Source of the DNA: Alicyclobacillus shizuokensis NBRC 103103
GTDB lineage: Bacteria; Bacillota; Bacilli; Alicyclobacillales; Alicyclobacillaceae
DNA: 51,736 nucleotides
Reading direction: 5' to 3'
NCBI RefSeq assembly: GCF_001552255.1
Contig: NZ_BCQV01000031.1
Location: 1 to 51,736 of the forward strand
A program made the translations under genes and the position numbers. A model generated the notes under the pieces. It was not told where the DNA came from, did not search any database, and was given only the letters and a program-made list of their open reading frames with translations. Position 1 is the first letter of the stretch. Each line of letters starts with the position of its first letter. Shown here piece after piece: positions 25,609 through 51,275 of this stretch.

Positions 25609-26271
25609 TCAACCGTGTCCAAACAACTGCATCGCCACCGCCCGCACCGGCGCCCCATCGCACCCGGCCAGCTTGAGCGGAAGAATGGAGATGAATGGAT
25701 CGGGAAAGTCTATCGCCGCAAAATTCGTCAGGTTTTCCGCGATCACGCCCGACACAGCGGCTACCGCGTCGTGCACCGGGAACTCGCTGCCGCCGGTGAT
25801 GTCCATGTTGATACAATCGATGCAAAACGTCCGCACACCCTTGGCCAGCAGAGCCTGGATCACCTCGATGTGCACGTAGGGATGGCGAAAGTACTTCTCC
25901 TGTCCGGCATAGGCCGACCAGCCGGTGTGGAAGAGCACGATTTGCCCAGCCTGCGCCTGCTCCACATAGTCGCCCACGTCCGCCAGCGTGATGGGCTCCT
26001 GCTCCGATTTACCGAGTGCGGGGATGAGCAGCCCCGGCCCGACAAACGCCTTGAGGTCCATCTCGTCGATGCGCTGGCCCGAATCGAGAAAGTGGTACGG
26101 CGCATCCACGTGTGAGCCGGTTTGCGATCCGATGTGCACATGGTGCAGGTTGTACCCTTCGCCGGCTATCGTCGTGGCGACGGACAGCCGCGGCTCCGGG
26201 TCTCCTGGGTAAATCGGCGTGTGGTTGTCGATGACCAGCGACAGGTCGACAATCTTCTTCGGAAACAGCAC
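25609..26271 (-). CDS. Cyclase/kynurenine formamidase-like metal-dependent hydrolase
   Basis: The family (cyclase, KynB, isatin hydrolase) hydrolyses amide or cyclic-amide bonds with a divalent metal. The 220-residue protein shows VDLSLVIDNHTPIYPGDP, the signature GSQTGSHVDAPYHF, DCINMDITGG, HDAVAAVSGVIAENL with a ligand glutamate, and PLKLAGCDGAPVRAVA. The usual signature begins H-x-G-T-H-x-D; here the first metal-ligand histidine is Gln and the Thr is Ser. The GTG at 26269-26271 is used since GGAGG lies ten bases upstream; a GTG at 26280 overlaps the permease stop but has no spacing. It is third in an operon with a ureohydrolase and an NCS1 permease, so its substrate is probably the imported compound and not formylkynurenine. 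Confidence 0.85.
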   Translation of the reverse strand: MLFPKKIVDLSLVIDNHTPIYPGDPEPRLSVATTIAGEGYNLHHVHIGSQTGSHVDAPYHFLDSGQRIDEMDLKAFVGPGLLIPALGKSEQEPITLADVGDYVEQAQAGQIVLFHTGWSAYAGQEKYFRHPYVHIEVIQALLAKGVRTFCIDCINMDITGGSEFPVHDAVAAVSGVIAENLTNFAAIDFPDPFISILPLKLAGCDGAPVRAVAMQLFGHG

Positions 26272-26276
26272 GTCCT

Positions 26277-27650
26277 TCACTCCTCCAGGGCGGGCGCCCG
26301 CTCCACCGACGCTTGGCTGCCCACGGTCTTCATGAGTCCATAGTACACGAGCGCAGTGAGAATAAACGTGAGCAGTGTCGCCCCGGTGGGCAGGGTGTGG
26401 ATATAGGAAAAGTAGTAGGCAAACGCAGCCCCGACGATGTAGGCGATGTAGGACAACACGTTGACACCGCCGCTGTACCAGTACTGCCTGCGGTTCCCTT
26501 CGATAATCTCCGCGGGGTCGTAGACACCTCGCTTGAGCACATAGTAGTCGACCAATACCACCGCCGTCACCGGGATGAACAGCGTGCCTATCATCAACAG
26601 GAAGTTTTCAAAGTTGTCCAGCAGCCAGCCTTTCAAGAGCGCCCCCATCACACACACGATGCCCATGAACAGCGTCGGCAGGAAAAACCGCTGGCGGGGA
26701 AAGATGGCCAGATAGGACATCGATGCGCTGTACAGGGCCATCACGTTGGTCGAGAGTACCGAGAAGAAGATGACCACGCCGGCGACAAAGCCGAGGGTGG
26801 GGTTGATGGAGCCGATGAGATCGGTCGGATCGTACGTTTGCGCTTGGTGGCCCATCAGCGAGAAGCCCGACACGGCGGCGCCCAGTCCCATCGCCACCAG
26901 GGTGGCGACGGTGTAGCCAATCCATGTTCCCCACAGGCTGACCTTTTGCGACACACAGTTGCGGTTGTAGTCACAGGAGGACGTGACCCAGGAAAAGGCG
27001 GTCGCCACAACGATGTCGAACGCGACCATCACGGTGGTGCCCGATTTCGGCGTCTGCGGCATGGCCAGCAGTTTGGAGATGTGGAAGTGGGTGAACATGT
27101 ACCCGAACACCAGGACCGACAGGATGAGCATCATAGTGGCCACCACGTTCTCCGTTCTCTCAATTCCCCGGTGGCCGTAAATGGTGATAAGGACGACCAA
27201 AGCCTCGGTCAGAATGACAAACAAATCGATGTTGCTGTAGCCGGTCAAGTACTGCACCGCGTGGTCCAGGCTGAGGCCGCCCATATACGCCTGTACCCAG
27301 CTCCATCCGATGAGGGAGAGGGTGTTGACCGCCGACGGCAGGGCGGCCCCCCTGTGTCCGAACGATCCGCGCGTCAAAATCATGGTCGGCAATCCGGTGC
27401 GGGTGCCGATGTTGCCGGTGAGGACGAGGGGAATCCCGCCGACCAGGGACCCCAATACGATGATCAGGATGGCGGTGCCGAACTTCAGGTCCGGGACGAG
27501 CAGCATACCGGTGAACACGGTGGTAACCACCACGTTCGCGCCCACCCACAGGCTGAACGTGGAAAACCAGCGCATCGTGCGCTCGGATTCGGGAACGGGC
27601 CGGACCGAATCCTGACCAAGATGGGTCATCGACGCAAAAGATTCTGCCAT
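26277..27650 (-). CDS. NCS1 family permease (nucleobase/hydantoin/allantoin type)
   Basis: NCS1 transporters are cation symporters for cytosine, purines, allantoin, hydantoins or related ring compounds. The 457-residue protein has twelve predicted helices, the N-terminal FSLWVGANVVVTTVFTGMLL segment, GIPLVLTGNIGTRTGLPTMILTRGSFG between helices 2 and 3, and SLIGWSWVQAYMGG in helix 4, all typical of NCS1. VAFDIVVATAFSWVTSSCDYNRNC is the family's helix-6 region. GGGGG sits ten bases before ATG 27648-27650. The stop overlaps the cyclase start region and the ureohydrolase stop is 84 bases upstream, so the three form one operon. The substrate is not fixed by sequence. Confidence 0.88.
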   Translation of the reverse strand: MAESFASMTHLGQDSVRPVPESERTMRWFSTFSLWVGANVVVTTVFTGMLLVPDLKFGTAILIIVLGSLVGGIPLVLTGNIGTRTGLPTMILTRGSFGHRGAALPSAVNTLSLIGWSWVQAYMGGLSLDHAVQYLTGYSNIDLFVILTEALVVLITIYGHRGIERTENVVATMMLILSVLVFGYMFTHFHISKLLAMPQTPKSGTTVMVAFDIVVATAFSWVTSSCDYNRNCVSQKVSLWGTWIGYTVATLVAMGLGAAVSGFSLMGHQAQTYDPTDLIGSINPTLGFVAGVVIFFSVLSTNVMALYSASMSYLAIFPRQRFFLPTLFMGIVCVMGALLKGWLLDNFENFLLMIGTLFIPVTAVVLVDYYVLKRGVYDPAEIIEGNRRQYWYSGGVNVLSYIAYIVGAAFAYYFSYIHTLPTGATLLTFILTALVYYGLMKTVGSQASVERAPALEE

Positions 27651-27734
27651 CTATGAAACCCCCTTTTTCTCTGCTGCGGTCGGCGCCGCCAAGCGGACGG
27701 GCGGAGCGTGCGCTCCCCCCGCATGGGACGCTCT

Positions 27735-28718
27735 TTAGCGGGCCGTCGCCGAACTTGCCGAGGTCTCCTTCTGCGTCTTGGCTTGCAGGGCGAGCAAGGT
27801 GATGAATTCATAGACGATGTTGGCCGCGGCCGCCGCCGTCACCTGACCGTGATCAAACGCGGGCAGGACCTCGACCAGGTCGAATCCGACAAACCGGATG
27901 CCGGTCAGCCCGCGCACCAGCTGCAGGGCTTCACTGCTGGTGACGCCACCGACTTCCGGCGTCCCCGTGCCTGGGGCGTAGACCGGATCGAGAAAGTCAA
28001 TGTCAAACGACAGGAAGGTGGGGCCATCTCCCACGCGCTCGCGGATGGTCTCGAGCATCTTGGCGATGCCCAGCCGGCGCAGGTCGCTCGTGGTGTACAC
28101 GGCCAGGCCCAGGGCGCGGGCCGCGTCCAAATCATCGGGGGCATACAGCGGTCCGCGCATGCCCACCTGAATCGCGCGCCCTACGTCTAGCAGGCCTTCC
28201 TCCACGGCGCGCCGGAAGGTGGTCCCATGGTTGTACTTCTGCTCGAAATAGGCGTCCCACGTGTCCGAGTGCGAGTCGAAGTGCACCAGTCCCACCGGCC
28301 CATAGCGCCGCGCCACGGCGCGCAATTCCGCCAGGGTGATGGAGTGGTCGCCGCCCAGCACAATCGGGACGATGCCCCGTTCGACCAACGGCATCAGGCC
28401 TTCCACCATCCGCTCGTACGTCTCCTGGATGTAGCCGGGGATGACCGTCAGGTCCCCGTGGTCAATGCCGGAGATATGGGCGAAGATGTCAATCTGCTGC
28501 TCCACGTTGTAGGGGCGCAGCAGGACGGAAAAGTCGCGAATGGCCTCCGGGCCGAAGCGGGCGCCGGTGCGGAACGACTGGCCGGTGTCAAACGGCGCCC
28601 CGACCACTGCGAAGTCAATCCCGTCGCTGAGCTGCTCCACGTACGGGAGCCGCATGAACGTGCGTACGCCGCAGAAGCGTGGCGATTGGAAGGAATCTCT
28701 TGGTTGAAACTTGCTCAT
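27735..28718 (-). CDS. Ureohydrolase (agmatinase/guanidinobutyrase family)
   Basis: Ureohydrolases use two manganese ions to hydrolyse a guanidino group to urea plus an amine. The 327-residue protein keeps all metal ligands: GGDHS, FDSHSDTWD (in place of the usual DAHxDxxD) and SFDIDFLDPVYAPGTGTPEVGG. It is the length of agmatinases/guanidinobutyrases, and the DSHSDTWD...YNHGTTFRRAVEEGLL segment resembles proteobacterial guanidinobutyrase, guanidinopropionase and guanidine-hydrolase-like enzymes as well as SpeB. Start is ATG 28716-28718 with GGAGG eight bases upstream. It is the first gene after a sigma-54 promoter, followed by the NCS1 permease and the cyclase. The neighbours argue against simple polyamine synthesis, so I do not use the symbol speB. 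Confidence 0.88.
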   Translation of the reverse strand: MSKFQPRDSFQSPRFCGVRTFMRLPYVEQLSDGIDFAVVGAPFDTGQSFRTGARFGPEAIRDFSVLLRPYNVEQQIDIFAHISGIDHGDLTVIPGYIQETYERMVEGLMPLVERGIVPIVLGGDHSITLAELRAVARRYGPVGLVHFDSHSDTWDAYFEQKYNHGTTFRRAVEEGLLDVGRAIQVGMRGPLYAPDDLDAARALGLAVYTTSDLRRLGIAKMLETIRERVGDGPTFLSFDIDFLDPVYAPGTGTPEVGGVTSSEALQLVRGLTGIRFVGFDLVEVLPAFDHGQVTAAAAANIVYEFITLLALQAKTQKETSASSATAR

Positions 28719-28777
28719 CGGTGTGCCTCCTTCGGTGCGTTTGGGAGAATAGCTGCATCCCTGTATGAAAAAAAGAA

Positions 28778-28793
28778 GCAAGAATCATGCCAC
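28778..28793 (-). promoter_or_regulatory. Sigma-54 (-24/-12) promoter of the ureohydrolase operon
   Basis: Read on the minus strand, TGGCATGATTCTTGCT fits the sigma-54 consensus TGGCAC-R-N4-TTGCW, with GG and GC exactly ten bases apart. The start point would be about 28767, roughly 49 bases before the ureohydrolase ATG. A second copy stands before the aldehyde dehydrogenase. Confidence 0.85.
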
Positions 28794-28993
28794 AATCGAA
28801 AAATGGGCACAGGAAAGCGAATTCACCAAACGACTTATGTTAGAAAATATAACAAAAGAGGCGCCTGGGTGATGCAAATGTGAATAACGCGGACAGGGGC
28901 ATGGGTTGCCGGTGTCGTCCGTGACCGGCCGCATATTCCGGTGCGCCGCTGGTGACGGGGAATTCCACGGGTACGTCTGCCTGTATACGGTCG

Positions 28994-29033
28994 CCTATAC
29001 AGAAGTGAATCATCTGATTCACATGTGTATAGG
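28994..29033. promoter_or_regulatory. 40-bp palindrome, candidate enhancer (UAS) for the sigma-54 activator
   Basis: The sequence is CCTATACA, GAA, GTGAATCA, TC, TGATTCAC, ATG, TGTATAGG: two nested 8-base inverted pairs, perfect in all 16 positions, around a two-base centre. Its centre is about 222 bases upstream of the -24 element of the ureohydrolase promoter, a normal enhancer distance. A direct repeat TGTATA(C)GGTCG occurs at 28982 and again at 29026, 44 bases apart. It lies 20 bases past the stop of the activator gene and has no T-run, so it is not a terminator. Confidence 0.7.
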
Positions 29034-29053
29034 TCGATCGCGCAGTGGTGGGT

Positions 29054-30457
29054 TCAGTCACTCTGGCCGGAACGGGACGCCGCGTTGCCGAAGTGTTTTC
29101 GCAGCTTTCGTACAACCGTCGGTTGGCTGATGCCGAGCAGCTTGGCCAACTGCATGGTGCTTCGGGCGCGCTTGCGCGCCTCCTCCAGGATGCGGCGTTC
29201 GTAAGCGTCAAGCAGCGCGGGCAAAGACACGGATCCAACCGGGGGCAGCACAGGGGTCGCCTCGGTGCCCAGGAGGTGCGAAGGTAGATCGGCCTCCGTG
29301 ACAACCTTGCTCTCCGCCAGCACGATGAGCCGCTCCACCATGTTCTCCAGCTCACGTACGTTGCCAGGCCAATCGTACGCGTGGAACCGCTGCAGGACTG
29401 CGCTGGACAGCGTCCGCTGCACACCGTGGCGGCGGCACATCTCAGCGGCGAAGTGGCGGGCCAGGGGGATGATATCGTCCCGACGCTCGCGCAGCGGGGG
29501 AATGACGAGTGGGACGATGTTCAGGCGGAAATAGAGGTCTTTGCGAAACCGACCCTCTGCCACCATCCGCTCCAGGTCCTGGTTGGTGGCCGCAATCAAG
29601 CGGAAGTCGGAGAACAGCTCTTTCTGGCCGCCAACGCGGAAAAACCGGTGCTCTTGGATGACGGTCAGCAGCTTCGCCTGCATGGCCAAAGGCAGCTCGC
29701 CGACCTCGTCAAGAAACAGGGTGCCTTGGTCGGCGAGTTCAATCAGCCCCGGTTTGCCGCTGCGCTTGGCGCCGGTAAACGCTCCCTGCTCGTAGCCGAA
29801 TAGCTCCGATTCCAGCAGCGCCTCCGGGATGGCGGCGCAGTTGATGCTGATGAACGGTCCCTTGTTGCGCGGGCTTTTCGAGTGCATCAGCTTTGCCAGC
29901 ACGCCCTTGCCGACGCCCGATTCGCCCAGCATCAGCACGGGCACGTCGTGGGCGGCCACGCGCAGCGCCGTGTCCACCGTGCGGCGCATCGCCGGACTGG
30001 TGGCTATCACGCCTTCGACGCGGGCGTTTTGTTCACGCAGGCGTTCCAGCTCCGACTTGACGCGGTCCATTTCCGTTTCCAGTTCCAGCATGTGCTCGCG
30101 CAGTTCCAGCAGTTCCGTCACGTCGTAGGAGTAGGAAACGATGCGAATCAGTTCACCCTGCTCGTCAAAAATGGGCACACCGGACACCAGGACGCGGTGC
30201 CCGTCCAGCGTCTTTTGCACCACGCTCTGGCGCGCGCGGGTCTCCAGCACGCGCCGGGTGATGGACGGATTGAACACACCGCGCTGTTCCAACTCCACCA
30301 CCGACAGCCCGGCAATCTCCTCCAAGGACACGCCGTAGCGGTGCTCAAACAGTTTCGAGACAAACAGGACACGACCGCTGCCGTCGGCGATGAGCACATC
30401 CTCGTAGACGAAGTCGAGAATCCGTTTCAGTTCCTCGGTGATGTCGATCTCTGCCAT
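29054..30457 (-). CDS. Sigma-54-dependent activator (PAS, AAA+, Fis-type HTH)
   Basis: The 467-residue protein is an enhancer-binding protein for RNA polymerase with sigma-54. A PAS-like sensor domain occupies about residues 8-115, a coiled coil follows (118-148), then the AAA+ domain with Walker A GESGVGKG (178-185), the sigma-54 contact loop GAFTGA (225-230), Walker B LFLDEVG, and the arginine-finger region FRKDLYFRLN. The C-terminus has a Fis-type helix-turn-helix (ARSTMQLAKLLGISQPTVVRKLRKHF). No receiver domain is present, so it likely senses a ligand through PAS and is not phosphorylated. Start ATG 30455-30457 has GAGGGGG six bases upstream. It is downstream of the aldehyde dehydrogenase by 92 bases and probably in that operon, so it would increase its own synthesis. 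Confidence 0.92.
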   Translation of the reverse strand: MAEIDITEELKRILDFVYEDVLIADGSGRVLFVSKLFEHRYGVSLEEIAGLSVVELEQRGVFNPSITRRVLETRARQSVVQKTLDGHRVLVSGVPIFDEQGELIRIVSYSYDVTELLELREHMLELETEMDRVKSELERLREQNARVEGVIATSPAMRRTVDTALRVAAHDVPVLMLGESGVGKGVLAKLMHSKSPRNKGPFISINCAAIPEALLESELFGYEQGAFTGAKRSGKPGLIELADQGTLFLDEVGELPLAMQAKLLTVIQEHRFFRVGGQKELFSDFRLIAATNQDLERMVAEGRFRKDLYFRLNIVPLVIPPLRERRDDIIPLARHFAAEMCRRHGVQRTLSSAVLQRFHAYDWPGNVRELENMVERLIVLAESKVVTEADLPSHLLGTEATPVLPPVGSVSLPALLDAYERRILEEARKRARSTMQLAKLLGISQPTVVRKLRKHFGNAASRSGQSD

Positions 30458-30548
30458 CACGAGCCCCCTCGTCCTTGGCGCGTTGTGCCTGAGTCTGTTC
30501 TCCATCGGGGTCTGGGGGCCGTCGGGGCCAAAGTGTGGAGGTGAACGT

Positions 30549-32075
30549 TCAGCCGCGGTAAAACCCAGACGGTTCCGGATGGAGCTGGATGCTCACCTGC
30601 TTGACCTCCGTGTATTCCTCCAATCCATGGATGCCCAGTTCACGACCGATGCCCGATTGCTTATATCCGCCCCACGGGGCTTCGACATAGGCAGGGTGGT
30701 AGGTGTTCACCCAGGTGATGCCGGCCCGCAGCCGTCGCACGACGCGGTGCGCCTTGGCGACATCGCCGGTAAACACCCCCGCGGCCAAACCGTACACACT
30801 ATCATTCGCCATGCGCACCGCTTCTTCCTCGCCCGCAAACCGCTCAACCACCAAAACGGGACCGAAAATTTCTTCCTGTACGATCCGCATGTCCGGGCGC
30901 ACGTCGAGAAAGACTGTGGGGTTCAGGAAATTGCCCCGCTGCAGGTGCGACGGCCGGTTCCCGCCGCACGCGAGGGTGGCCCCTTCCCGTCGGCCTGCTT
31001 CCACGTAGCCGACGACCCGCTCCAGGTGTTGTGGGGAGATCAGGGGACCCATCTCCGTCTCCGCGTCAAACCCGTCGCCCACCCGAATGCGCCTCGCGCG
31101 CCGGACCAGCTCGTCCACAAACCGGTCATAGATGGAGGCCTCCACCAACAGGCGCGATCCGGCGGCGCACACCTGGCCGCTGCCGAAGAAGATACCGAGC
31201 AGGGCGTGGTCCACCGCCACCTCCAAGTCGGCGTCCGCGAATACGATGTTGGCCGACTTGCCGCCCAGCTCCAGGGCCAGTTTTTTCAGGTTGCCGCTCG
31301 CGGCCTGCATGACCTTGCGCCCGGTGGCCGTGCCGCCAGTGAATGCAACCATGTCCACCCGTGCACTCTCTGCCAACACCTGGCCGACCGCCTGGCCGGT
31401 CCCCAGCACGATGTTGACGACGCCTTGCGGGAAGCCCACTTCATCCATGAGTTGGGCCAGGCGCAGAGCGGTCAGAGGTGTTAACTCTGACGGCTTCAGC
31501 ACACACGTGTTGCCGGCAGCCAAGGCGGGGGCCAGCTTCCAGGCCGCCGTGAGCAGCGGAAAGTTCCACGGGACAATTTGGGCGCAAACCCCGACCGGAT
31601 CGCGCCGGGTGTAGGTCTCTGTGGGGCCGGGGACGGTCAGCACCTGGCCCTGCGGTTGCAGCGCCAGCCCCGCGTAATAACGAAAACAGTGCACCGCATC
31701 CTCGACATCCAATCTCGCCTCGCGCAGCGGCTTGCCGTTGTTCAAGGTCTCCAAGCGAACGAAGGTGTCGGCGTTCGCTTCCAGCGCGTCGGCCAGACGC
31801 AGCAGGAGGAGCGCCCGTTCCCGGGCTGGTGAGTCGGCCCACAGACCGTCGTCAAACGCGCGCCGAGCGGCATCAATGGCCCGTTCGGCGTCTTCGGGTC
31901 CGCCCTCCGCCACGCGGACAATCGCCTCGCCAGTGGCCGGATTGATCAAGGTGCGCGTACGCCCGGCTGTGGCCGGGACAAACCGTCCATCGATGTACAT
32001 GAAGAGGACACCGTCTGTGTCGTGCGGCAACAGGTCTGCCTCCTGGCGCGCTGCCGCTTCCGTCAAATTGGACAT
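30549..32075 (-). CDS. NAD(P)-dependent aldehyde dehydrogenase
   Basis: The 508-residue enzyme belongs to the BetB/GbuB-like aldehyde dehydrogenases that oxidise betaine aldehyde or omega-amino/guanidino aldehydes. It shows the cofactor loop VPWNFPLLTAAWKLAPALAAGN, FTGGTATGRKVM, the catalytic-glutamate segment LELGGKSANIVF, and the catalytic Cys in GSGQVCAAGSRLLVE. The ATG at 32073-32075 has AAGGTG and GGGGTG upstream. A consensus sigma-54 promoter lies about 52 bases before it. The activator gene follows in the same direction. In related pathways gamma-guanidinobutyraldehyde is oxidised by such an enzyme and its product cleaved by a ureohydrolase, which would suit this locus but is not proven. 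Confidence 0.87.
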   Translation of the reverse strand: MSNLTEAAARQEADLLPHDTDGVLFMYIDGRFVPATAGRTRTLINPATGEAIVRVAEGGPEDAERAIDAARRAFDDGLWADSPARERALLLLRLADALEANADTFVRLETLNNGKPLREARLDVEDAVHCFRYYAGLALQPQGQVLTVPGPTETYTRRDPVGVCAQIVPWNFPLLTAAWKLAPALAAGNTCVLKPSELTPLTALRLAQLMDEVGFPQGVVNIVLGTGQAVGQVLAESARVDMVAFTGGTATGRKVMQAASGNLKKLALELGGKSANIVFADADLEVAVDHALLGIFFGSGQVCAAGSRLLVEASIYDRFVDELVRRARRIRVGDGFDAETEMGPLISPQHLERVVGYVEAGRREGATLACGGNRPSHLQRGNFLNPTVFLDVRPDMRIVQEEIFGPVLVVERFAGEEEAVRMANDSVYGLAAGVFTGDVAKAHRVVRRLRAGITWVNTYHPAYVEAPWGGYKQSGIGRELGIHGLEEYTEVKQVSIQLHPEPSGFYRG

Positions 32076-32126
32076 CACACCCCACACCTTTCTGGATGCA
32101 AAATAAGTCGGACGAGGGAATGTGAA

Positions 32127-32142
32127 AGCAAGAACTATGCCA
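32127..32142 (-). promoter_or_regulatory. Sigma-54 (-24/-12) promoter of the aldehyde dehydrogenase gene
   Basis: On the minus strand TGGCATAGTTCTTGCT repeats the other sigma-54 promoter at 14 of 16 positions and again has GG and GC ten bases apart. Predicted start near 32116, 41 bases before the ATG. ATATGGATAGG at 32211-32221 resembles one arm of the enhancer palindrome (ATGTGTATAGG, nine of eleven), about 75 bases upstream. Confidence 0.83.
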
Positions 32143-32219
32143 ATGGCGGCCGGGAGCGGCATCAGCGGCATGAGGGGTGGCCGGGAGACAAGGGTGGGGG
32201 AACGGCGCGGATATGGATA

Positions 32220-43012: not shown

Positions 43013-43068
43013 AATAGGTAAGAGCGAGTGGGGCCTCCTATCATAACATGAGAGAGGGCGTGTATCGT

Positions 43069-44184
43069 ATGGCGGTCAGCGAAGCCTATCATCCGGGTTT
43101 GGAAGGGGTCATCGCCACAGAGACCGAGATTTCCTACCTTGACGTGGAACACGAACAGATTGTCGTGCGGGGCTACGATTTGATTGAGTTGGCCAAGACG
43201 AAACGGTACTTGGACGTGGTCTTGTTGCTCTGGAATCGCCACCTTCCCACGGAGGAAGAACGGAAGCAACTGGAGCAAACCTTGGCTGAGAACCTGAACC
43301 TGCCCGACGGGGTGTTGGATGTCTTCCATGCCCTGCCGCCGCGGACCCATCCCATGGATGCTCTGCGCACGGGCCTGTCCGCACTGGCCGGATATGATCC
43401 GCTGCTCGACGACCGCTCGGCCCAGGCCAATCGGGAAAAAGGCGCGCGCATCCTGGCGCGCATGCCTCATCTGGTGGCGAACGGCTATCACATCCTGCAG
43501 GGAGAGACGCCCGTCGCGCCCGCACCGGATCTCTCCTTTTCCGCCAACCTGCTGTACATGATCACAGGCAAGCGGCCCACGCCAGTGGAAGAGGCCGTCT
43601 TTGATCAATCACTGATCGTCTACAGCGAACACGAGATGCCCAATTCCACCTTCGCCGCCCGCGTCATCGCCTCGACGCAGTCTGACATCTACGGCGCCCT
43701 GACTGGAGCGGTCGCCTCGCTGAAGGGCAGCCTGCACGGCGGGGCCAACGAGGCCGTGATGCACATGCTGGAACAGGTGCAGACGGCCGACCAATTGGAG
43801 CAGGAGATGAAAAGGAGGCTGGCGCAGAAGGAGCGGATCATGGGCTTTGGCCACCGCGTCTACATGAGACGTCCGGATCCGCGGGCCCTGCTGATGAAAG
43901 AGGCGCTGAAGAAACTGGTTTATGAAAGCGGACACAGGGAACTGCTGGAGATGTGCGAACGCGGCGAAGCGGTGATGTACCAGGAGAAAGGGCTCTATCC
44001 CAATCTGGACTACTACGCGGCGCCTGTCTACTACCTGTTGGGCATTCCCATTCCTCTGTACACACCGGTCTTTTTTGCGGCCAGAACGGCGGGACTGGTG
44101 GCCCACGTGATGGAGCAGCATGACCATAACCGGCTGTTTCGTCCGCGGGTGCGCTACACCGGCCCACGGGGCCTGCGTCCATAA
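43069..44184 (+). CDS. prpC: 2-methylcitrate synthase/citrate synthase
   Basis: The enzyme condenses propionyl-CoA (or acetyl-CoA) with oxaloacetate. The 371-residue protein has the citrate synthase histidines in [12 protein letters not shown] and [15 protein letters not shown], the [15 protein letters not shown] segment, and the C-terminal [10 protein letters not shown] typical of small Gram-positive enzymes like CitZ and MmgD. The following prpD and prpB genes make 2-methylcitrate synthase (MmgD-type) the better call over housekeeping citrate synthase. I choose ATG 43069, with GAGAGGG about ten bases upstream; an ATG at 43048 adds seven residues and has none. Confidence 0.9.
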
Positions 44185-44275
44185 TCGACGTAACCTTGGT
44201 ATCATAACAAGAGAGTCCACGCCTTCGTCGTGCTCGGCCTTTCGCATGATCAACACGAGAAAGGGAGACATTCAC

Positions 44276-45718
44276 GTGCCAGCGAATCGAAACCCGCAGT
44301 CCCATCCGTATGATGCGCTCATCACCGAGATTTCGGACTACGTCCTGGATACCCAGATCACCAGCCGGGAAGCCTACACCACAGCCCGCTACGTGCTGAT
44401 GGACGCGCTCGGCTGCGGCATCCTCGCCCTGCGCTTCCCGGAGTGCACGAAACTGCTGGGTCCGTTGGTTCCAGGGGCCACATTGCCCGGCGGCGCGCGC
44501 GTGCCGGGCACCTCCTTCGAGCTCGATCCGGTCCAGGCGGCGTTCAACATCGGCGCCATGAACCGCTGGCTGGACTACAACGACACCTTCCTCGCCGCCG
44601 AGTGGGGCCATCCGTCTGACAACCTGGCCGCCATCCTGGCCACGGCCGACTACCTGAGCCGCCAGCGCGCCGCCCGCGGCAAACCGGGCCTCGACATGAA
44701 AGCGGTCCTGACCGCGATGATTAAGGCGCACGAAATTCAGGGCGTGCTGGCGCTCGAGAACAGCCTCAACCGGGTGGGGTTGGACCACGTCCTGTTTGTC
44801 AAGGTGGCCTCCACTGCCGTGGTCACCGCCCTGCTCGGGGGGAGTCGGGAGGAAGTGCAAAGCGCCCTGTCCAACGCCTTCGTCGACAACGGCAGTCTGC
44901 GCACCTACCGGCACGCGCCGAACACCGGATCGCGCAAGTCGTGGGCAGCCGGGGACGCCGCCAGCCGCGCGGTGCGCTTGGCCCTGATGGCGCAGAGGGG
45001 TGAGATGGGCTATCCGAGCGCCCTGTCCGCGCCGGGGTGGGGCTTTGAGGACGTGGTGATGCGCGGCAAGCGCCTGACCCTGCAGCGGCCGCTGTCGTCT
45101 TACGTGATGGAGAACGTGCTGTTCAAGGTTTCCTATCCGGCCGAGTTCCACGCCCAGACGGCTGCCGAGTGCGCCATCGCCTTGCACGAGCAGGTCAAGG
45201 ACCGCCTCGACGACATCGACCGCATCACGATTTTCACCCAGGAGTCGGCCATCCGCATCATCGACAAGACCGGGCCGCTTCACAACCCGGCGGACCGGGA
45301 CCACTGCATCCAGTACGTGGTGGCCATCGGGCTCTTGTTTGGCACGCTCACCGCCGAGCACTACGAGGACGATGTGGCGGCGGATGCGCGCATTGACCGG
45401 CTGCGGGAGAAGATGGTGGTAGTCGAGGATGAACAGTACAGCCGCGATTACCTAGATCCTGACAAGCGCTCCATCGCCAACGCGATTCAGGTTCACTTCC
45501 GCGACGGCAGTCAGACGGACAAGGTAGAGCAGCACTATCCGCTCGGGCACCGCTTCCGCCGCGCCGAGGCGATGCCCAAACTGGAGCAAAAGTTTCGTGC
45601 CAACCTGGAGACCCGTTTCCCGGGAAAGCAGGTGCAGCAGATTGTCCAACTCATTCAGGACGAGGAGCGCTTGATGCGCACCGACGTGCAGGACTTCATG
45701 GACCTGTTTGTGATCTGA
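44276..45718 (+). CDS. prpD: 2-methylcitrate dehydratase (MmgE/PrpD family)
   Basis: PrpD dehydrates 2-methylcitrate to 2-methyl-cis-aconitate without an iron-sulfur cluster. The 480-residue protein shows [82 protein letters not shown] and [20 protein letters not shown], all diagnostic of the MmgE/PrpD family. Length fits MmgE (472). GTG 44276 follows AAAGGGAG by eight bases. It lies 91 bases after prpC and 119 before prpB, with no terminator in between, so the three likely form one transcript. Confidence 0.93.
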
Positions 45719-45837
45719 CAGATGATAGACTGTTGCCGTTGAACGGCCGGATGTCAGCCCAGCACGATGGACAGGGGCGGAGACCCGTCGGGCCCTCCGC
45801 CCGGTCCGCGATTCCAACCGTCTAGGAGGTACTTCCC

Positions 45838-46755
45838 TTGTCCTGGTTGATACGAGACGAAGCCGACCAATCGCAGCTGGCCCAGCGCTTTCGCGAACTG
45901 ATGCACGGGCCGCAAATCCTGCAGATGCCCGGCGCCCACGACGCGATGGCCGCCTTGGTCGCGCACAAGGTCGGGTTTCAGGCCCTCTACCTGTCCGGCG
46001 CCGCGTATACCGCCAGCCGCGGGCTGCCCGATTTGGGCATCGTCACGTCCACGGAGATGGCCGAACGCGCCCGCGACCTGGTGCGGGCGACCGGCCTGCC
46101 GGTCCTGGTGGACATCGACACCGGCTACGGTGGGATTCTGAATGTGGCCCGCACGGCGCGCGAGATGGTGGAGGCCAATGTTGCCGCCGTTCAGATTGAG
46201 GACCAGGAGATGCCGAAAAAGTGCGGCCACCTCAACGGCAAGAAACTGATTCCGGCGGAGGAGATGGCGCAGAAGATCCGCACCATCAAGGAGATCGCCC
46301 CTTCGCTGGTGGTCATTGCCCGCACCGACGCCAAATCGGTGGAAGGTCTGGACGCTGCCCTGGCGCGCATGCGCCAGTACGTGGCCGCCGGCGCCGACGG
46401 GCTGTTCCCCGAGGCCCTGTCCAGCGAAGACGAGTTTGCCCGCGTCGGCCGGGAGCTGGGCGGGGACGTCCCGCTTCTCGCCAACATGACCGAGTTTGGC
46501 AAAACGCCCTACTACACGGCCGCGCAATTCGCCTCCTGGGGTTTCAAAATGGTCATCTATCCGGTCACATCGCTGCGCGTGGCCGCCAAGGCCTACGAGC
46601 GGGTGTTCCAGGAGATCTTCAGAGAAGGGACGCAGGCGAAATCCCTGGAGGACATGCAGACCCGCAAGGAACTGTATGAGACCATCCGCTATTACGACTA
46701 CGAAGACCTGGACAACCACATCGCGAAAACGGTGTTGCCTGAAATCGGGAGCTGA
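45838..46755 (+). CDS. prpB: 2-methylisocitrate lyase
   Basis: PrpB splits 2-methylisocitrate to pyruvate and succinate, closing the methylcitrate cycle. The 305-residue PEP mutase-type barrel shows PGAHDAMAALVAHKVGFQALYLSGAAYTASRGLPDLG, VDIDTGYGG, IEDQEMPKKCGHLNGKKLI with the KKCGH catalytic cysteine, ARTDAKSVEG and FPEALSSEDEF. Start is TTG 45838; AGGAGGT lies eight bases upstream and the protein opens MSWLIRDEADQ. The aconitase that hydrates 2-methyl-cis-aconitate and a propionyl-CoA synthetase are not encoded nearby and must be elsewhere. Confidence 0.94.
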   Translation: MSWLIRDEADQSQLAQRFRELMHGPQILQMPGAHDAMAALVAHKVGFQALYLSGAAYTASRGLPDLGIVTSTEMAERARDLVRATGLPVLVDIDTGYGGILNVARTAREMVEANVAAVQIEDQEMPKKCGHLNGKKLIPAEEMAQKIRTIKEIAPSLVVIARTDAKSVEGLDAALARMRQYVAAGADGLFPEALSSEDEFARVGRELGGDVPLLANMTEFGKTPYYTAAQFASWGFKMVIYPVTSLRVAAKAYERVFQEIFREGTQAKSLEDMQTRKELYETIRYYDYEDLDNHIAKTVLPEIGS

Positions 46756-46791: not shown

Positions 46792-47487
46792 GTGTCGGGT
46801 GGTGGGCTGGCTGGGGCATGGCGGGAGCGTACGCTGTATCGGTTTCTTTCCTACGACGTCGCCTTGGCCGAACGGTTTGACCTAAAGGTTCGGACTGTGG
46901 TGTTGTATACCGGGAATGTTCGTACGGCGCCGGACTTGCTTGACATCGGTGCCGCCATCTACCGGATTGACAACGTGTTTCTCAGCGAGCTGGACGGCGA
47001 TGCGGTTCTCGATACGGTACGGAGACACCTGAACTCGAACCACTGGACTGAATCGGACCGAGTCCGTCTGGCGTTCGCGTTTCATATGCACTTTCAAACC
47101 CGGTCTGGGGACGAGGTATTTCGTGAGGTACTGGAATTAACGCAGAGCATCCCGGACCGGCAGGAGCAAAACTACGTCACGGCCTTGATTCTCGGGTTAA
47201 GCGGCGGGAGCATGACAGATAACCAGAGACAACTCCTGAAGGAGGCAATGGGGATGACGGACGTGGTTCGTGAACTGATGGAGGAGGCGGAGCAGGAAGG
47301 TTGGCAGAAGGGTCTTGAACAGGGACGCAAGGAGGGTATCCAGCAAGGCCGCCAAGAAGGCATTCAGCAAGGCCGCCAGGAGGTGGCTCTGAAGCTGCTC
47401 GCCGAAGGAGTCAGCCTTGATGTCGTCGTCAAGACAACCGGCTTGACCCGGGAGGAAATTGAAGCACTCCGTCGGCAAATCCATTGA
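46792..47487 (+). pseudogene. N-terminally truncated Rpn/PD-(D/E)XK transposase-like nuclease
   Basis: The protein frame contains YRFLSYDVALAERFDLKVRTVVLYTGNV and SELDGDAVLDTVRRHL, which match the middle of Rpn (recombination-promoting nuclease, YhgA-like) family proteins. Full members carry an N-terminal catalytic segment (D...E-x-Q) before this point; it is absent here and no in-frame start with a ribosome site precedes the family homology, so the gene is truncated at its 5' end. A coiled coil with the repeat GIQQGRQE (twice, at about 185-205) follows, encoded by near-identical 24-base units. The C-terminal SLDVVVKTTGLTREEIEALR is family typical. It sits just after prpB. Confidence 0.65.
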
Positions 47488-47604
47488 TGCCTTCTGAAAT
47501 GACCTCACGTTCATGCCTCGGTGCGTTTGTTACTGGGAATTCCATAGAATCGCCGGTCTCGTGGCATGCATCCAGAGCTACGCTGTTCTAGTGGCGGACA
47601 GATC

Positions 47605-47627
47605 GTTCATAGACATCGACCATGAAC
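47605..47627. promoter_or_regulatory. Inverted repeat GTTCAT-N11-ATGAAC before the lactonase
   Basis: GTTCAT (47605-47610) and ATGAAC (47622-47627) form a perfect six-base dyad just upstream of the ribosome site of the lactonase gene. It may be an operator; no regulator gene is adjacent. Confidence 0.3.
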
Positions 47628-47646
47628 CGTGTGAGGTGATGAAGCT

Positions 47647-48492
47647 ATGAACATTATGAAACCGCATCCAAAGCTGTACGTGATGGACAACGGGCGCATG
47701 CGAATGGACAAGAACTGGATGATTGCCATGCACAACCCGGCCACCGCCGAGGAACCCAACCGGCCCAACGAGATGGTGGAATTCCCTATCTACACGGTGC
47801 TGATTGACCACCCGGAAGGCAAGATTCTCTTCGACACATCCTGCAACCCAAACTCCATGGGCCCGAGCGGGCGCTGGGCGGAAGTCACCCAATCGCAGTT
47901 TCCTTGGACCGCCAATGAGGAGTGCTACCTGCACCACCGCCTTGAGCAACTGCGCGTCCGGCCGGAGGACATTCGGTACGTGATTGCCTCGCACTTGCAC
48001 CTTGACCACGCAGGGTGCCTCGAGATGTTCACGAATGCGACTATTATTGTTCACGAGGACGAATTTCATGGGGCGTTGGAAGTCTATGCGCGCAACCAAA
48101 AGGCGGGCGCCTACATTTGGGCGGACATCGACGCTTGGATTCGCAACAACCTGCAGTGGCGCACCATCAAGCGGCACGAGGACAACCTCCTGCTGGCCGA
48201 CGGCGTGCGCGTGCTCAACTTCGGCAGCGGCCACGCCTGGGGAATGCTGGGGCTGTACGTGCAGTTGCCTGAGAAAGGCAATATCATCCTCGCCTCGGAC
48301 GCGATTTACGCCAAAGAGAGCTACGGACCCCCGGTCAAGCCGCCGGGCATCCTCTACGATTCGGTCGGCTTCGTCCGCACGGTCGAGCGCATTCGCACGC
48401 TGGCCAACGAGTACAGGGCAGAGGTTTGGTTTGGGCACGACGCCGAGCAGTTCGCGACCTTCCGCACGTCGGACGAAGGGTATTACGAGTAA
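47647..48492 (+). CDS. MBL-fold lactonase (AHL lactonase/gamma-butyrolactonase family)
   Basis: The 281-residue protein is a metallo-beta-lactamase fold lactonase of the AiiA/AttM type. The dinuclear zinc motif is ASHLHLDHAGCLE (His116, His118, Asp120, His121), followed by VHEDEFHGALEVY, the histidine in FGSGHAWGMLGLYV, the bridging Asp in ILASDAIYAKE, and WFGHDAEQF near the C-terminus. Such enzymes open acyl-homoserine lactones or simple gamma-lactones. Since an alcohol dehydrogenase and a succinate-semialdehyde dehydrogenase follow, gamma-butyrolactone is a plausible substrate, as for AttM/BlcC of Agrobacterium. GAGGTGATG precedes ATG 47647. Confidence 0.85.
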   Translation: MNIMKPHPKLYVMDNGRMRMDKNWMIAMHNPATAEEPNRPNEMVEFPIYTVLIDHPEGKILFDTSCNPNSMGPSGRWAEVTQSQFPWTANEECYLHHRLEQLRVRPEDIRYVIASHLHLDHAGCLEMFTNATIIVHEDEFHGALEVYARNQKAGAYIWADIDAWIRNNLQWRTIKRHEDNLLLADGVRVLNFGSGHAWGMLGLYVQLPEKGNIILASDAIYAKESYGPPVKPPGILYDSVGFVRTVERIRTLANEYRAEVWFGHDAEQFATFRTSDEGYYE

Positions 48493-48603
48493 GCGCGCCG
48501 ACAACGCTCGGAATTGGGCGCCTCCCGAGACGCCTGGGCTTGCTGCGGGCGAATTCGGATGGCGCGGAATCCGTTTTCCAGCATCGCGAAAGGGGGATGC
48601 ACG

Positions 48604-49728
48604 ATGAAGACGAAAGCCGCAGTCCTGTATGAGATAGGACTGCCCACTCCGTACACGGAGAGCCAGCCGCTGAAGATCGAGACCCTGGACCTGGATGGGC
48701 CAGGCCCCGGCGAGGTGCTGGTGCGCATCCGGGCGGCAGGCCTCTGCCACTCCGACCTGTCGGTCATCAACGGATCGCGCCCGCGCCCCACGCCGATGGC
48801 GCTCGGCCATGAGGCGGCCGGTGAAGTGGTGGAAGTGGGGCCCGGCGTGACCGACCTGCGCCCCGGTGACCATGTGGTCTGCGCGTTTGTGCCTAGCTGT
48901 GGCCACTGCCTGCCCTGTCAGGAGGGGCGTCCCGCCCTGTGCGAATCAGGGGCAGCCGCCAACACCGAGGGGACCCTGTTGTCCGGCGCGCGCCGGCTGT
49001 CGCTGCACGGATCGCCCATCCATCACCACCTTGGTGTATCCGGATTCAGCGAATACGCCGTCATCGCCCGCAATTCGCTGATTCCGGTGGATACGGACGT
49101 TCCGTTTCATCAAGTGGCCCTGTTTGGCTGCGCCGTTATCACCGGGGTCGGCGCCGTGGTCAACACGGCCCGCGTGCCGGTGGGAGCCAGCGTGGCCATC
49201 GTTGGGCTGGGGGGCGTCGGCCTGTCCGCCTTGCTGGGTGCGCGCGTGGCCGGGGCCGCCCGCATCGTGGCCGTGGACGTCAATCCCGACAAGCTGTCCC
49301 TGGCCGAGAGCCTGGGCGCCACGGACACGTTCGACGCGCGCGATCCGGATGTCACCCGCCGCATTCGCGAGCTGACGCGGGGCGGGGTGGAGTACGCGTT
49401 TGAAACCGCGGGCGCGGTGCCGGCGCTGCAAACTGCCTTCGCCATCACGCGCCGCGGCGGGACCACCGTGACCAGCGGCCTGCCGCATCCGGACCATCAC
49501 TTCTCCTTCCCACAGGTGACCTTGACAGCGGAAGAGCGCACCCTCAAAGGGTCCTACGTCGGCAGTTGTGTTCCTAGCAGGGACATCCCGCGCTTTATCG
49601 AATTGTTTAAGCAGGGCAGGCTTCCAGTGGACAGATTGTTGACAGCCACCCTGCCTTTGGAGGACATTAACAGGGGTTTTGATCGACTCGACCGGGGAGA
49701 AGTCTCCCGGCTAGTAGTCAGCATGTAA
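48604..49728 (+). CDS. Zinc-dependent alcohol dehydrogenase (MDR family)
   Basis: The 374-residue protein is a class III-like medium-chain dehydrogenase. The catalytic zinc ligand is in GLCHSDLSVI with GHEAAGEVVEVG downstream, the structural zinc cysteines are in PSCGHCLPCQEGRPALC, and the NAD fold is VAIVGLGGVGLSALLGARVAGAARIVAVD. It is the right type to oxidise a primary alcohol such as 4-hydroxybutyrate to its semialdehyde. GAAAGGGGG before ATG 48604 provides a ribosome site. Agrobacterium BlcB, in the analogous step, belongs (from memory) to the iron-type family, so this would be a non-orthologous replacement. Confidence 0.88.
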   Translation: MKTKAAVLYEIGLPTPYTESQPLKIETLDLDGPGPGEVLVRIRAAGLCHSDLSVINGSRPRPTPMALGHEAAGEVVEVGPGVTDLRPGDHVVCAFVPSCGHCLPCQEGRPALCESGAAANTEGTLLSGARRLSLHGSPIHHHLGVSGFSEYAVIARNSLIPVDTDVPFHQVALFGCAVITGVGAVVNTARVPVGASVAIVGLGGVGLSALLGARVAGAARIVAVDVNPDKLSLAESLGATDTFDARDPDVTRRIRELTRGGVEYAFETAGAVPALQTAFAITRRGGTTVTSGLPHPDHHFSFPQVTLTAEERTLKGSYVGSCVPSRDIPRFIELFKQGRLPVDRLLTATLPLEDINRGFDRLDRGEVSRLVVSM

Positions 49729-49829
49729 CACGCGCGTCTACGCGCATGTCCGAAACGGTGTACCCGAGGCGCGTGTGCCTGTGGACGCCGCTTCGGACAA
49801 CCTTGTCAAGGGGGAGTTGACGGCCAGCC

Positions 49830-51275
49830 ATGGAACTGGGAACCTATCAGAACTACATCGGCGGGGAGTGGACAAACGGCTTCGCCAAGGAGACGTTCGA
49901 CGTGGTCAATCCGGCCACCGAACAGGTCGTGGCGACGGTGCCCAACGCCACGCCCGAAGACATGCAGGCGGCGATTGACAAGGCGGCGGCCGTTCAGGAC
50001 GAGTGGGCGGACACCCTGGCCGGAGACCGCGCGCGCATCCTGCGCGAAGCGGCCGTCAAGATGCGGGCGGAGGCGGACAGGCTGGCGCGCATCATGACCA
50101 TGGAGGAAGGCAAGCCGCTGGCCGAGGCGCGCGGCGAAGTCAACTACGCGGCGTCGTTTTTGGATTGGTTCGCGGAAGAGGCCACACGCGTCTACGGCGA
50201 CACGATTCCCTCCAGTTCGCCCGACAAGCGCCTGTTGGTCATCAAGCGGCCGGTCGGTGTCACGGCTGCGATTACGCCCTGGAACTTCCCGGCAGCTATG
50301 ATCACGCGCAAGCTCGGGCCCGCGCTGGCCGCTGGATGTACGATGATCATAAAACCGTCCGAGCTCACGCCGCTGTCCGCGTTGGAATTGGCGCGCATCT
50401 TGGAGGAGGTCGGACTGCCCAAAGGCGTGCTTTCCGTCCTCGTCGGCACCGACGCGCCCGCACTGGCCAAGGTGATCATGGACGATATTCGCGTCAGGAA
50501 GGTGTCGTTCACCGGATCGACCGAGGTGGGCAAGATCTTGATGCGCCAGGCGGCCGACACCGTGAAACGCGTCTCCATGGAGCTGGGCGGCCACGCCCCG
50601 TTCCTCGTCTTTGCGGACGCGGACTTGGAGGCGGCCGTAGCGAACGCGGTCAGTTGCAAAATGCGCGGCATGGGCGAGACGTGCGTCTCCGCCAACCGCA
50701 TCTATGTGCAGCGCCCCATCTACGAAGAGTTCGTGCAGAAACTGGCCGAACGGATGGGCAGCATGCGGGTGGGCAATGGCCTGGAGGACGGCGTGATAGT
50801 GGGGCCGCTGATTGAGCCGGCGGCCATTGAGAAGGTGAAGCGCCACGTGGCGGACGCCGTCGCCAAGGGAGCCCGCCTGGTGGTCGGCGGGGAGGCAAAA
50901 CCGGCGCCGGGCTGGTTCTACACGCCGACCGTCTTGGCCGACGTCAATCACTCCATGCTCATCACGAAGGAGGAGACGTTTGGCCCGGTGGCGGCCGTGC
51001 TGCCGTTCGATACCGAGGAGGAGGCTGTTCGCTACGCCAACGACACTCCTTACGGCTTGGCTGCGTATTACTTCACTCGCGACGTCGGCCGCGTGTTCCG
51101 CTTGGCGGAGCGCCTGCAGTATGGCATTCTCGGCGCCAACGACGGCATTCCTTCTACTGCCCAAGCGCCGTTCGGAGGCGTGAAAGAATCGGGTGTTGGC
51201 CGAGAAGGCAGCAAGTACGGGATCGCAGAGTACCTTGACATTAAGTACGTGTCGCTGGGTGGCATTCTCAGTTAA
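49830..51275 (+). CDS. gabD: Succinate-semialdehyde dehydrogenase
   Basis: The 481-residue enzyme oxidises succinate semialdehyde to succinate with NAD(P). It shows ITPWNFPAAMITRKLGPALAAGC, FTGSTEVGKILMRQAADTVKRVSMELGGHAPFLVF with the catalytic glutamate, MRGMGETCVSANRIYVQ with the catalytic cysteine, and FGGVKESGVGREGSKYGIAEYLDIKY, the GabD C-terminus. Length equals E. coli GabD (482). ATG 49830 follows GGGGGAG by about 13 bases, so the ribosome site is loose. It comes 101 bases after the alcohol dehydrogenase, and a rho-independent-like terminator follows at 51334. Confidence 0.9.
   Translation: MELGTYQNYIGGEWTNGFAKETFDVVNPATEQVVATVPNATPEDMQAAIDKAAAVQDEWADTLAGDRARILREAAVKMRAEADRLARIMTMEEGKPLAEARGEVNYAASFLDWFAEEATRVYGDTIPSSSPDKRLLVIKRPVGVTAAITPWNFPAAMITRKLGPALAAGCTMIIKPSELTPLSALELARILEEVGLPKGVLSVLVGTDAPALAKVIMDDIRVRKVSFTGSTEVGKILMRQAADTVKRVSMELGGHAPFLVFADADLEAAVANAVSCKMRGMGETCVSANRIYVQRPIYEEFVQKLAERMGSMRVGNGLEDGVIVGPLIEPAAIEKVKRHVADAVAKGARLVVGGEAKPAPGWFYTPTVLADVNHSMLITKEETFGPVAAVLPFDTEEEAVRYANDTPYGLAAYYFTRDVGRVFRLAERLQYGILGANDGIPSTAQAPFGGVKESGVGREGSKYGIAEYLDIKYVSLGGILS

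Follow-up and report, generated by a model that had tools for sequence, protein, structure and literature searches.

Organization of the Three Genes

The window, that is, the whole stretch of DNA analysed here, is a 51,736 nt contig from the 3.63-Mb genome of Alicyclobacillus shizuokensis NBRC 103103, which is assembled in 148 contigs. Three genes on its + strand at 47647-51275 were studied, and they probably form an operon for the catabolism of short-chain lactones (estimated probability about 0.7). Gene 1 (47647-48492) encodes an AhlS-family lactonase of 281 aa with the metallo-beta-lactamase fold, assigned from model NF047976, PDB matches and motif residues. Gene 2 (48604-49728) encodes a Zn-dependent alcohol dehydrogenase (ADH) of the medium-chain dehydrogenase/reductase (MDR) family, assigned from the Pfam domains ADH_N and ADH_zinc_N; with the ATG at 48604 as start codon it has 374 aa, while its mechanical open reading frame (ORF) begins upstream, at a TTG at 48514. 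Gene 3 (49830-51275) encodes an aldehyde dehydrogenase (ALDH) of 481 aa, which was read as a succinate-semialdehyde dehydrogenase (SSADH) from a near miss to TIGR01780 and from its residues. An earlier sequence-only reading had placed these three enzymes here, and strand, coordinates and domain families were all as claimed.

The genes were separated by 111 bp (genes 1 and 2) and 101 bp (genes 2 and 3). Ribosome-binding-like sites were recognized by eye close to the starts of genes 1 and 2 and about 16 bases before gene 3. No terminator-like or sigma-70-like site was listed in either gap by the sequence scan, a kind of scan that is weak.

Sequence Features of the Enzymes

Gene 1 scored 532.1 bits against the AhlS-lactonase model NF047976 and thus passed its cut-off of 475. 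The metal motif HLHLDH (HxHxDH) occupied residues 116-121, and H196, D218 and H264 were also present. GcL (6n9q) and AaL (6cgy) were among the best PDB matches, and the identity was 79% to a protein equal to AaL and 82% to a protein equal to GcL. By lactonase, the closest named relatives were Alicyclobacillus kakegawensis (96%) and A. herbarius (94%). Against the AttM model, gene 1 scored 143 bits and failed the cut-off of 390, with 29.7% identity to AttM/BlcC; it was nearer to AiiB (42.5-43.2%) than to AttM/BlcC (30%). Two lactonases from the survey described below were identical to characterized enzymes over all 280 aligned residues, namely that of locus L031 to AaL (6CGY, Alicyclobacillus acidoterrestris) and that of locus L039 to GcL (6N9Q, Parageobacillus caldoxylosilyticus). 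According to excerpts of the AaL report, AaL acted on gamma-butyrolactone with a kcat of 23.5 s-1, a KM of 171 uM and a kcat/KM of 1.4 x 10^5 M-1 s-1 (PMC6062542). Gamma-butyrolactone is therefore a real substrate of AaL, though not its best. The same excerpts report hydrolysis of N-acyl-homoserine lactones (AHLs) by this ortholog (PMC6062542), in agreement with the earlier suggestion that the lactonase might quench them.

For gene 2, both ADH_N and ADH_zinc_N were over their Pfam cut-offs, as in a two-domain Zn-dependent MDR ADH, and the best PDB matches were class I ADHs. Cys 48, Cys 176 and the His of GHEAAGE were present, which we take to be the places of the catalytic zinc ligands, and Cys 99/102/105/113 presumably occupy those of the structural zinc.

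Gene 3 was over the Pfam Aldedh cut-off, and its best solved relative was the E. coli SSADH; the identity was 53% to E. coli GabD and 53-54% to BlcA. In E. coli SSADH, R164, R282 and S445 correspond to R213, R334 and S498 in the human active site, and C288 and E254 are catalytic, as stated in part of PMC2823781. This triad and the catalytic Cys and Glu were kept in gene 3, its nine aligned orthologs and BlcA. The triad was missing from 14 other ALDHs of lactonase loci, of which 11 were the ALDHs of Bacilli termed ALDHb and three stood beside lactonase paralogs (L032 and L035). Among ten ALDH matches in the own genome, eight were aligned together, and only gene 3 had the full triad, one other having two of the three residues; the match at 598-1983, aligned separately, was without the triad, and a fragment on contig C30 was left out. 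Gene 3 was accordingly read, from its residues, as a probable SSADH.

Conservation and Variants of the Gene Set

The surroundings of 80 named lactonase loci were surveyed, the best 80 of 170 relatives. An ADH was counted as a neighbour if it stood on the same strand at a distance of up to 2 kb. Counts were taken from tblastn matches and not from the greedily picked ORF lists, which include spurious ORFs; for parts of the window and of A. kakegawensis, two of these lists have wrong-strand picks in place of the real genes. A lactonase match at E <= 1e-20 occurred in 12 of 41 Alicyclobacillaceae genomes. In all seven of those with a lactonase at least 79% identical, the ADH and the ALDH followed it in the same order, the ALDH of G006 matching in two pieces. 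Two loci each in Aneurinibacillus and Neobacillus contained the same trio, with intergenic gaps of 14-45 bp in these four, and it was also present in further Bacilli. The arrangement exceeds chance, since the same order and orientation recur in other genera. The grouping noticed earlier is thus a conserved block.

The alcohol partner of the lactonase varied. An iron-type ADH was found in 44 loci, a Zn ADH in 6 and neither in 30; two of the last group (L049 and L056) have ALDHb and an activator, but only 67 and 19 bases of sequence follow the lactonase match there. The Zn ADH was accompanied by SSADH in all six of its loci and in 14 of 17 rows when further genomes were added, and the iron ADH by ALDHb in 30 of 44; a Sporosarcina locus (L098) combined iron ADH with SSADH. 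On a tree of the lactonases with 95 rows, three changes of the Zn label and seven of the iron label were needed, fewer than in any of 500 shuffles, a result that near-copies help and for which the root is unknown. Two unrelated ADH families therefore fill the alcohol step beside the same lactonase, which argues for a real alcohol-oxidation step.

The set in the window represents one form of a lactone module, widespread in Bacilli and often linked to sigma-54, that is also the source of well-known quorum-quenching enzymes. The sequence-only reading had pointed to the occurrence in a Firmicute and to the contrast of Zn with iron. As the module is common in Bacilli, and more often has the iron-type ADH there, neither is peculiar to this genome.

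Other arrangements were also observed. L032 (5908-14757, G007) contains two facing blocks, each made up of a lactonase paralog (62% and 70% identical to that of the window), an ALDH and an MDR-type ADH. In Planococcus/Planomicrobium (L084, L093-L095, L105-L107), AhlS stands beside aspartokinase-, homoserine dehydrogenase- and threonine biosynthesis-like genes, named by eye.

The ADH family was examined from its own side. Matches to gene 2 at E <= 1e-110 were found in 54 of 398 Bacilli genomes. A lactonase adjoined the ADH at 16 of the 30 best ADH loci, the window included, and in two of the 16 (L137, L147) only as a fragment; a strict tie of the ADH to the lactonase was therefore rejected. On the ADH tree, the label "beside lactonase" changed 6 times among 38 rows, compared with a mean of 12.7 in shuffles. 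Pieces of a lactonase in L137 and of an ALDH in L146, each next to such an ADH, indicate that decay of a once-joined set accounts for part of this pattern.

Linked Activator and Sigma-54-Type Sites in Relatives, Absent at the Window Operon

In many relatives an activator with PAS, sigma-54-interaction and helix-turn-helix domains (Pfam on L027 and L028) lies beside the operon. It is usually divergent from the operon, and on the same strand in L055, L056, L087 and L090. Across the 80 loci, an activator was present at 37 of the 52 with a dehydrogenase partner and at none of the 28 without. A -24/-12 pattern was scored over 250 bases before the first gene, with a threshold of 12.5 of 14 that was set after a first scan; 41 of 45 activator-linked loci and 34 of 43 named loci without activator were scored. 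Sites of at least 12.5 occurred in 40 of the 41 activator-linked loci, in none of the 34 others and in 7 of 2150 dinucleotide shuffles. The lone activator-linked exception (L044) has a full-score site farther upstream. In two loci, L030 (5043-6386, G008; by Pfam) and L033 (5399-6724; by cluster), the rpoN gene lies directly 3' of the SSADH gene and so adjoins an operon with a sigma-54 site. Lone AhlS lactonases were often near a small regulator of one cluster (18 of the 80 loci, between L059 and L116, mostly Paenibacillus). This regulator is of the HxlR type (Pfam, L059) and mostly upstream and divergent, so that control differs from that of the activator-linked copies.

In the window, the leader before the lactonase (47488-47646, +) contains a ribosome-binding-like GAGGTG. 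Here and in A. kakegawensis, the best -24/-12 score in the leader was 10 of 14, below the threshold, and no activator adjoined the operon. The leader is preceded by an ORF outside the pathway (46792-47487, +), which resembles the Rpn family (recombination-promoting nuclease/putative transposase) at 47.4 bits, below the TIGR01784 cut-off of 52.1. In A. herbarius (L027), the sigma-54 activator is located between the Rpn-family gene and the lactonase. Farther upstream in the window lie methylcitrate-cycle genes (citrate/methylcitrate synthase, prpD and prpB; 43048-46755, +), whose order is common to the window, A. kakegawensis and A. herbarius.

The window's genome encodes RpoN. The closest homologs of the A. 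herbarius activator were 41% identical in the window's genome, 44% in A. kakegawensis and 70% in G017. The sigma-54 activator encoded in the window at 29057-30505 (-) is unlikely to be the relocated cognate, at 40-41% identity to the A. herbarius activator compared with 70% for the lactonase-adjoining one of G017. It falls within a second cluster on the - strand (25609-32171) with an aldehyde dehydrogenase, an arginase-family enzyme, a cytosine/purine-type permease and a putative cyclase, possibly for the breakdown of guanidino or ureido acids. Another homolog, 38% identical to the A. herbarius activator, adjoins the gamma-aminobutyrate (GABA) aminotransferase gene at 50109-53400 of contig C24 of the window's genome (G000).

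Between the window and A. kakegawensis, dN/dS was 0.075 for the lactonase, 0.067 for the in-frame part of the ADH and 0.065 for the SSADH; the three genes are under purifying selection. With such values and no activator, the lactonase and SSADH at least look maintained. As the adjoining activator and promoter are missing in both genomes, the operon must be driven another way there. Both elements were presumably lost rather than never there.

Proposed Pathway and Alternative Explanations

In the proposed pathway, the lactonase would open the ring of a gamma-lactone or a small delta-lactone. The Zn ADH would then oxidize the resulting hydroxy acid at its terminal hydroxyl, which gives a semialdehyde, and the SSADH would oxidize the semialdehyde further to a dicarboxylic acid. 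With gamma-butyrolactone, which the analysis puts forward as the leading candidate substrate, the intermediates would be 4-hydroxybutyrate and succinate semialdehyde, and the succinate formed would enter the tricarboxylic acid cycle. In relatives, the sigma-54 activator would act on the -24/-12 promoter before the first gene. We infer the substrate, the direction, cotranscription, the inducer and the role of the ADH.

A number of observations, including some that enter the alternatives below, weigh against this pathway. Gene 3 scored 630.5 bits against the SSADH subfamily TIGR01780, a near miss of 16 bits to the cut-off of 646.35 (its ortholog in L051 scored 636.8 bits). Gene 2 was over no NCBIfam cut-off in the profile scan, and by sequence it is not a dedicated lactone enzyme. 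No lactonase adjoined 14 of the 30 best ADH loci, and the ADHs of two loci without lactonase (L162 and L163) sit among acyl-CoA dehydrogenase-like ORFs, named by eye. Since the family often occurs without lactonase, the substrate of the ADH is not readable from sequence. In A. kakegawensis (G022), a frame break near the start interrupts the ADH, whose upkeep there is therefore doubtful. Among the 17 Zn-ADH rows, L032 has ALDHb, and L172 and L173 have no ALDH within reach. Furthermore, the iron-ADH version pairs mostly with ALDHb, which lacks the SSADH triad, so the Zn and iron versions may use different substrates.

The same operon might have another main substrate, such as delta-valerolactone or another omega-hydroxy-acid lactone, which would yield glutarate or a longer diacid. 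A Zn-dependent MDR ADH would suit omega-hydroxy acids, Zn ADHs are used in the alcohol steps of the cyclopentanol and cyclohexanol pathways, and SSADHs can also take a C5 semialdehyde. However, the succinate-semialdehyde triad is present in gene 3, which shares 53% identity with both GabD and BlcA. Moreover, no flavin-containing monooxygenase (FMO)-like or Baeyer-Villiger-type monooxygenase was over the Pfam cut-off in the genome (one match, 19.1 vs. 22 bits), so the lactone would not arise from cyclic ketones that way. Although AaL is more efficient on delta-valerolactone than on gamma-butyrolactone, with a kcat/KM of 4.5 x 10^5 M-1 s-1 in excerpts of the AaL report (PMC6062542), a different main substrate is unlikely.

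Quorum quenching or AHL use would be another explanation. The lactonase would mainly destroy AHLs, and the dehydrogenases would be passengers or oxidize the freed N-acyl-homoserine. AhlS is a curated quorum-quenching family, and AaL was about ten-fold better on C4-AHL than on gamma-butyrolactone (kcat/KM of 1.3 x 10^6 M-1 s-1), with its lowest KM, 9 uM, among the substrates in excerpts of the report (PMC6062542). In addition, 28 of the 80 lactonase loci have neither a dehydrogenase nor the activator nearby. These points are opposed by the three genes staying joined across genera and by the sigma-54-type site before the first gene in nearly all activator-linked loci scored. The triad, too, would fit a small semialdehyde acid rather than an N-acyl-aspartate semialdehyde. 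This explanation is rather improbable.

The three genes might also be separate, with the SSADH serving GABA breakdown, the ADH general in function and the placement beside the lactonase historical. The genome has a GABA aminotransferase over the cut-off, and GABA breakdown may thus be a second role of the SSADH; no other aligned ALDH of the genome has the full triad. ADHs of this family without lactonase are common, and the gaps in the window are 101-111 bp. However, the gaps are just 14-45 bp in the Aneurinibacillus and Neobacillus loci measured, and the lactonase and ALDH pieces beside such ADHs point to decay of a once-joined set. Independent genes are rather improbable as well. Compared with these alternatives, a lactone-catabolic operon is the preferred explanation. 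The interpretation given in the sequence-only reading was partly supported, and its pathway is likely.

Comparison with Known Systems

The Blc-like pathway suggested earlier refers to blcABC (attKLM) of Agrobacterium. Excerpts of a review (PMC5924552) describe blcABC as converting gamma-butyrolactone into gamma-hydroxybutyrate and succinic semialdehyde, and BlcC as able to cleave AHLs too. The blc locus on plasmid At of A. fabrum C58 (L128) contains a divergent blcR (IclR family), an SSADH, an ADH annotated as iron-containing and attM; the names blcA and blcB were assigned to the SSADH and ADH by position. In both systems, the lactonase, ADH and SSADH genes are adjacent on one strand and the proposed reaction chain is the same, and the SSADHs are homologous (54%) with the same triad. 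The window ADH, however, is a Zn-dependent MDR enzyme and BlcB is iron-type, as had been claimed. The lactonase belongs to another clade than AttM/BlcC, and the order is lactonase-ADH-SSADH in the window and SSADH-ADH-lactonase in A. fabrum. Relatives of the window operon have a sigma-54 activator, whereas blcABC has the BlcR repressor; no IclR-type BlcR stands beside the window operon, whose upstream neighbours are the Rpn-family ORF and prpB, and no search for an IclR gene was made in the rest of the genome. The likeness thus held for the enzyme logic and the SSADH, and not for lactonase clade, ADH family, regulator or order. The set works in the manner of blcABC without belonging to it. Direct relationship to blcABC by transfer was rejected, as the lactonase is nearer to AiiB and the ADH is of another family; the low identity to AttM/BlcC and the other ADH family indicate that the set was assembled separately, as the sequence-only reading had proposed.

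The lactonase is orthologous to AaL and GcL. Given the identity of the L031 lactonase with AaL, the AaL gene is the first of a lactonase-ADH-SSADH block, and this block has the activator and a sigma-54 site. The GcL locus differs from the window in having the activator and sigma-54 site; its ADH is of the iron type, and neither SSADH nor ALDHb was matched within 3 kb. The AhlS/Fe-ADH/ALDHb loci of Bacillaceae and their kin share the lactonase family and, where an activator is present, the type of activator and promoter. They differ in the iron-type ADH (Pfam, L039) and in the ALDH, which (L042) is nearest to a lactaldehyde dehydrogenase model, below its cut-off, and lacks the SSADH triad. Searches of open-access full text yielded no paper that describes an operon of this kind in Bacilli. 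The strings "operon" and "genom" occur 0 times in the AaL report (PMC6062542), and terms for gene context led to no relevant passage in two GcL papers.

The lactonases of the AaL/GcL/AhlS type in Bacilli may by origin belong to a sigma-54-activated lactone-catabolic regulon, in which Zn and iron ADHs would be interchangeable with a matching change of ALDH. Lone lactonases, as in Paenibacillus, would be leftovers after dehydrogenase loss, and the lineage of the window would have lost the activator and promoter and kept a working operon under new control. The odds of this scenario as a whole are about even. The locus also provides a natural example of one pathway step served by two unrelated ADHs, and of an operon seemingly outliving its own activator and promoter. 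AaL and GcL have been studied as tools against biofilms and virulence. The genes around them and the sigma-54 sites lead to the testable claim that they feed their hosts on lactones. The everyday job of these quorum-quenching lactonases may therefore lie in feeding and not in silencing neighbours, and the hydrolysis of AHLs could be a by-product.

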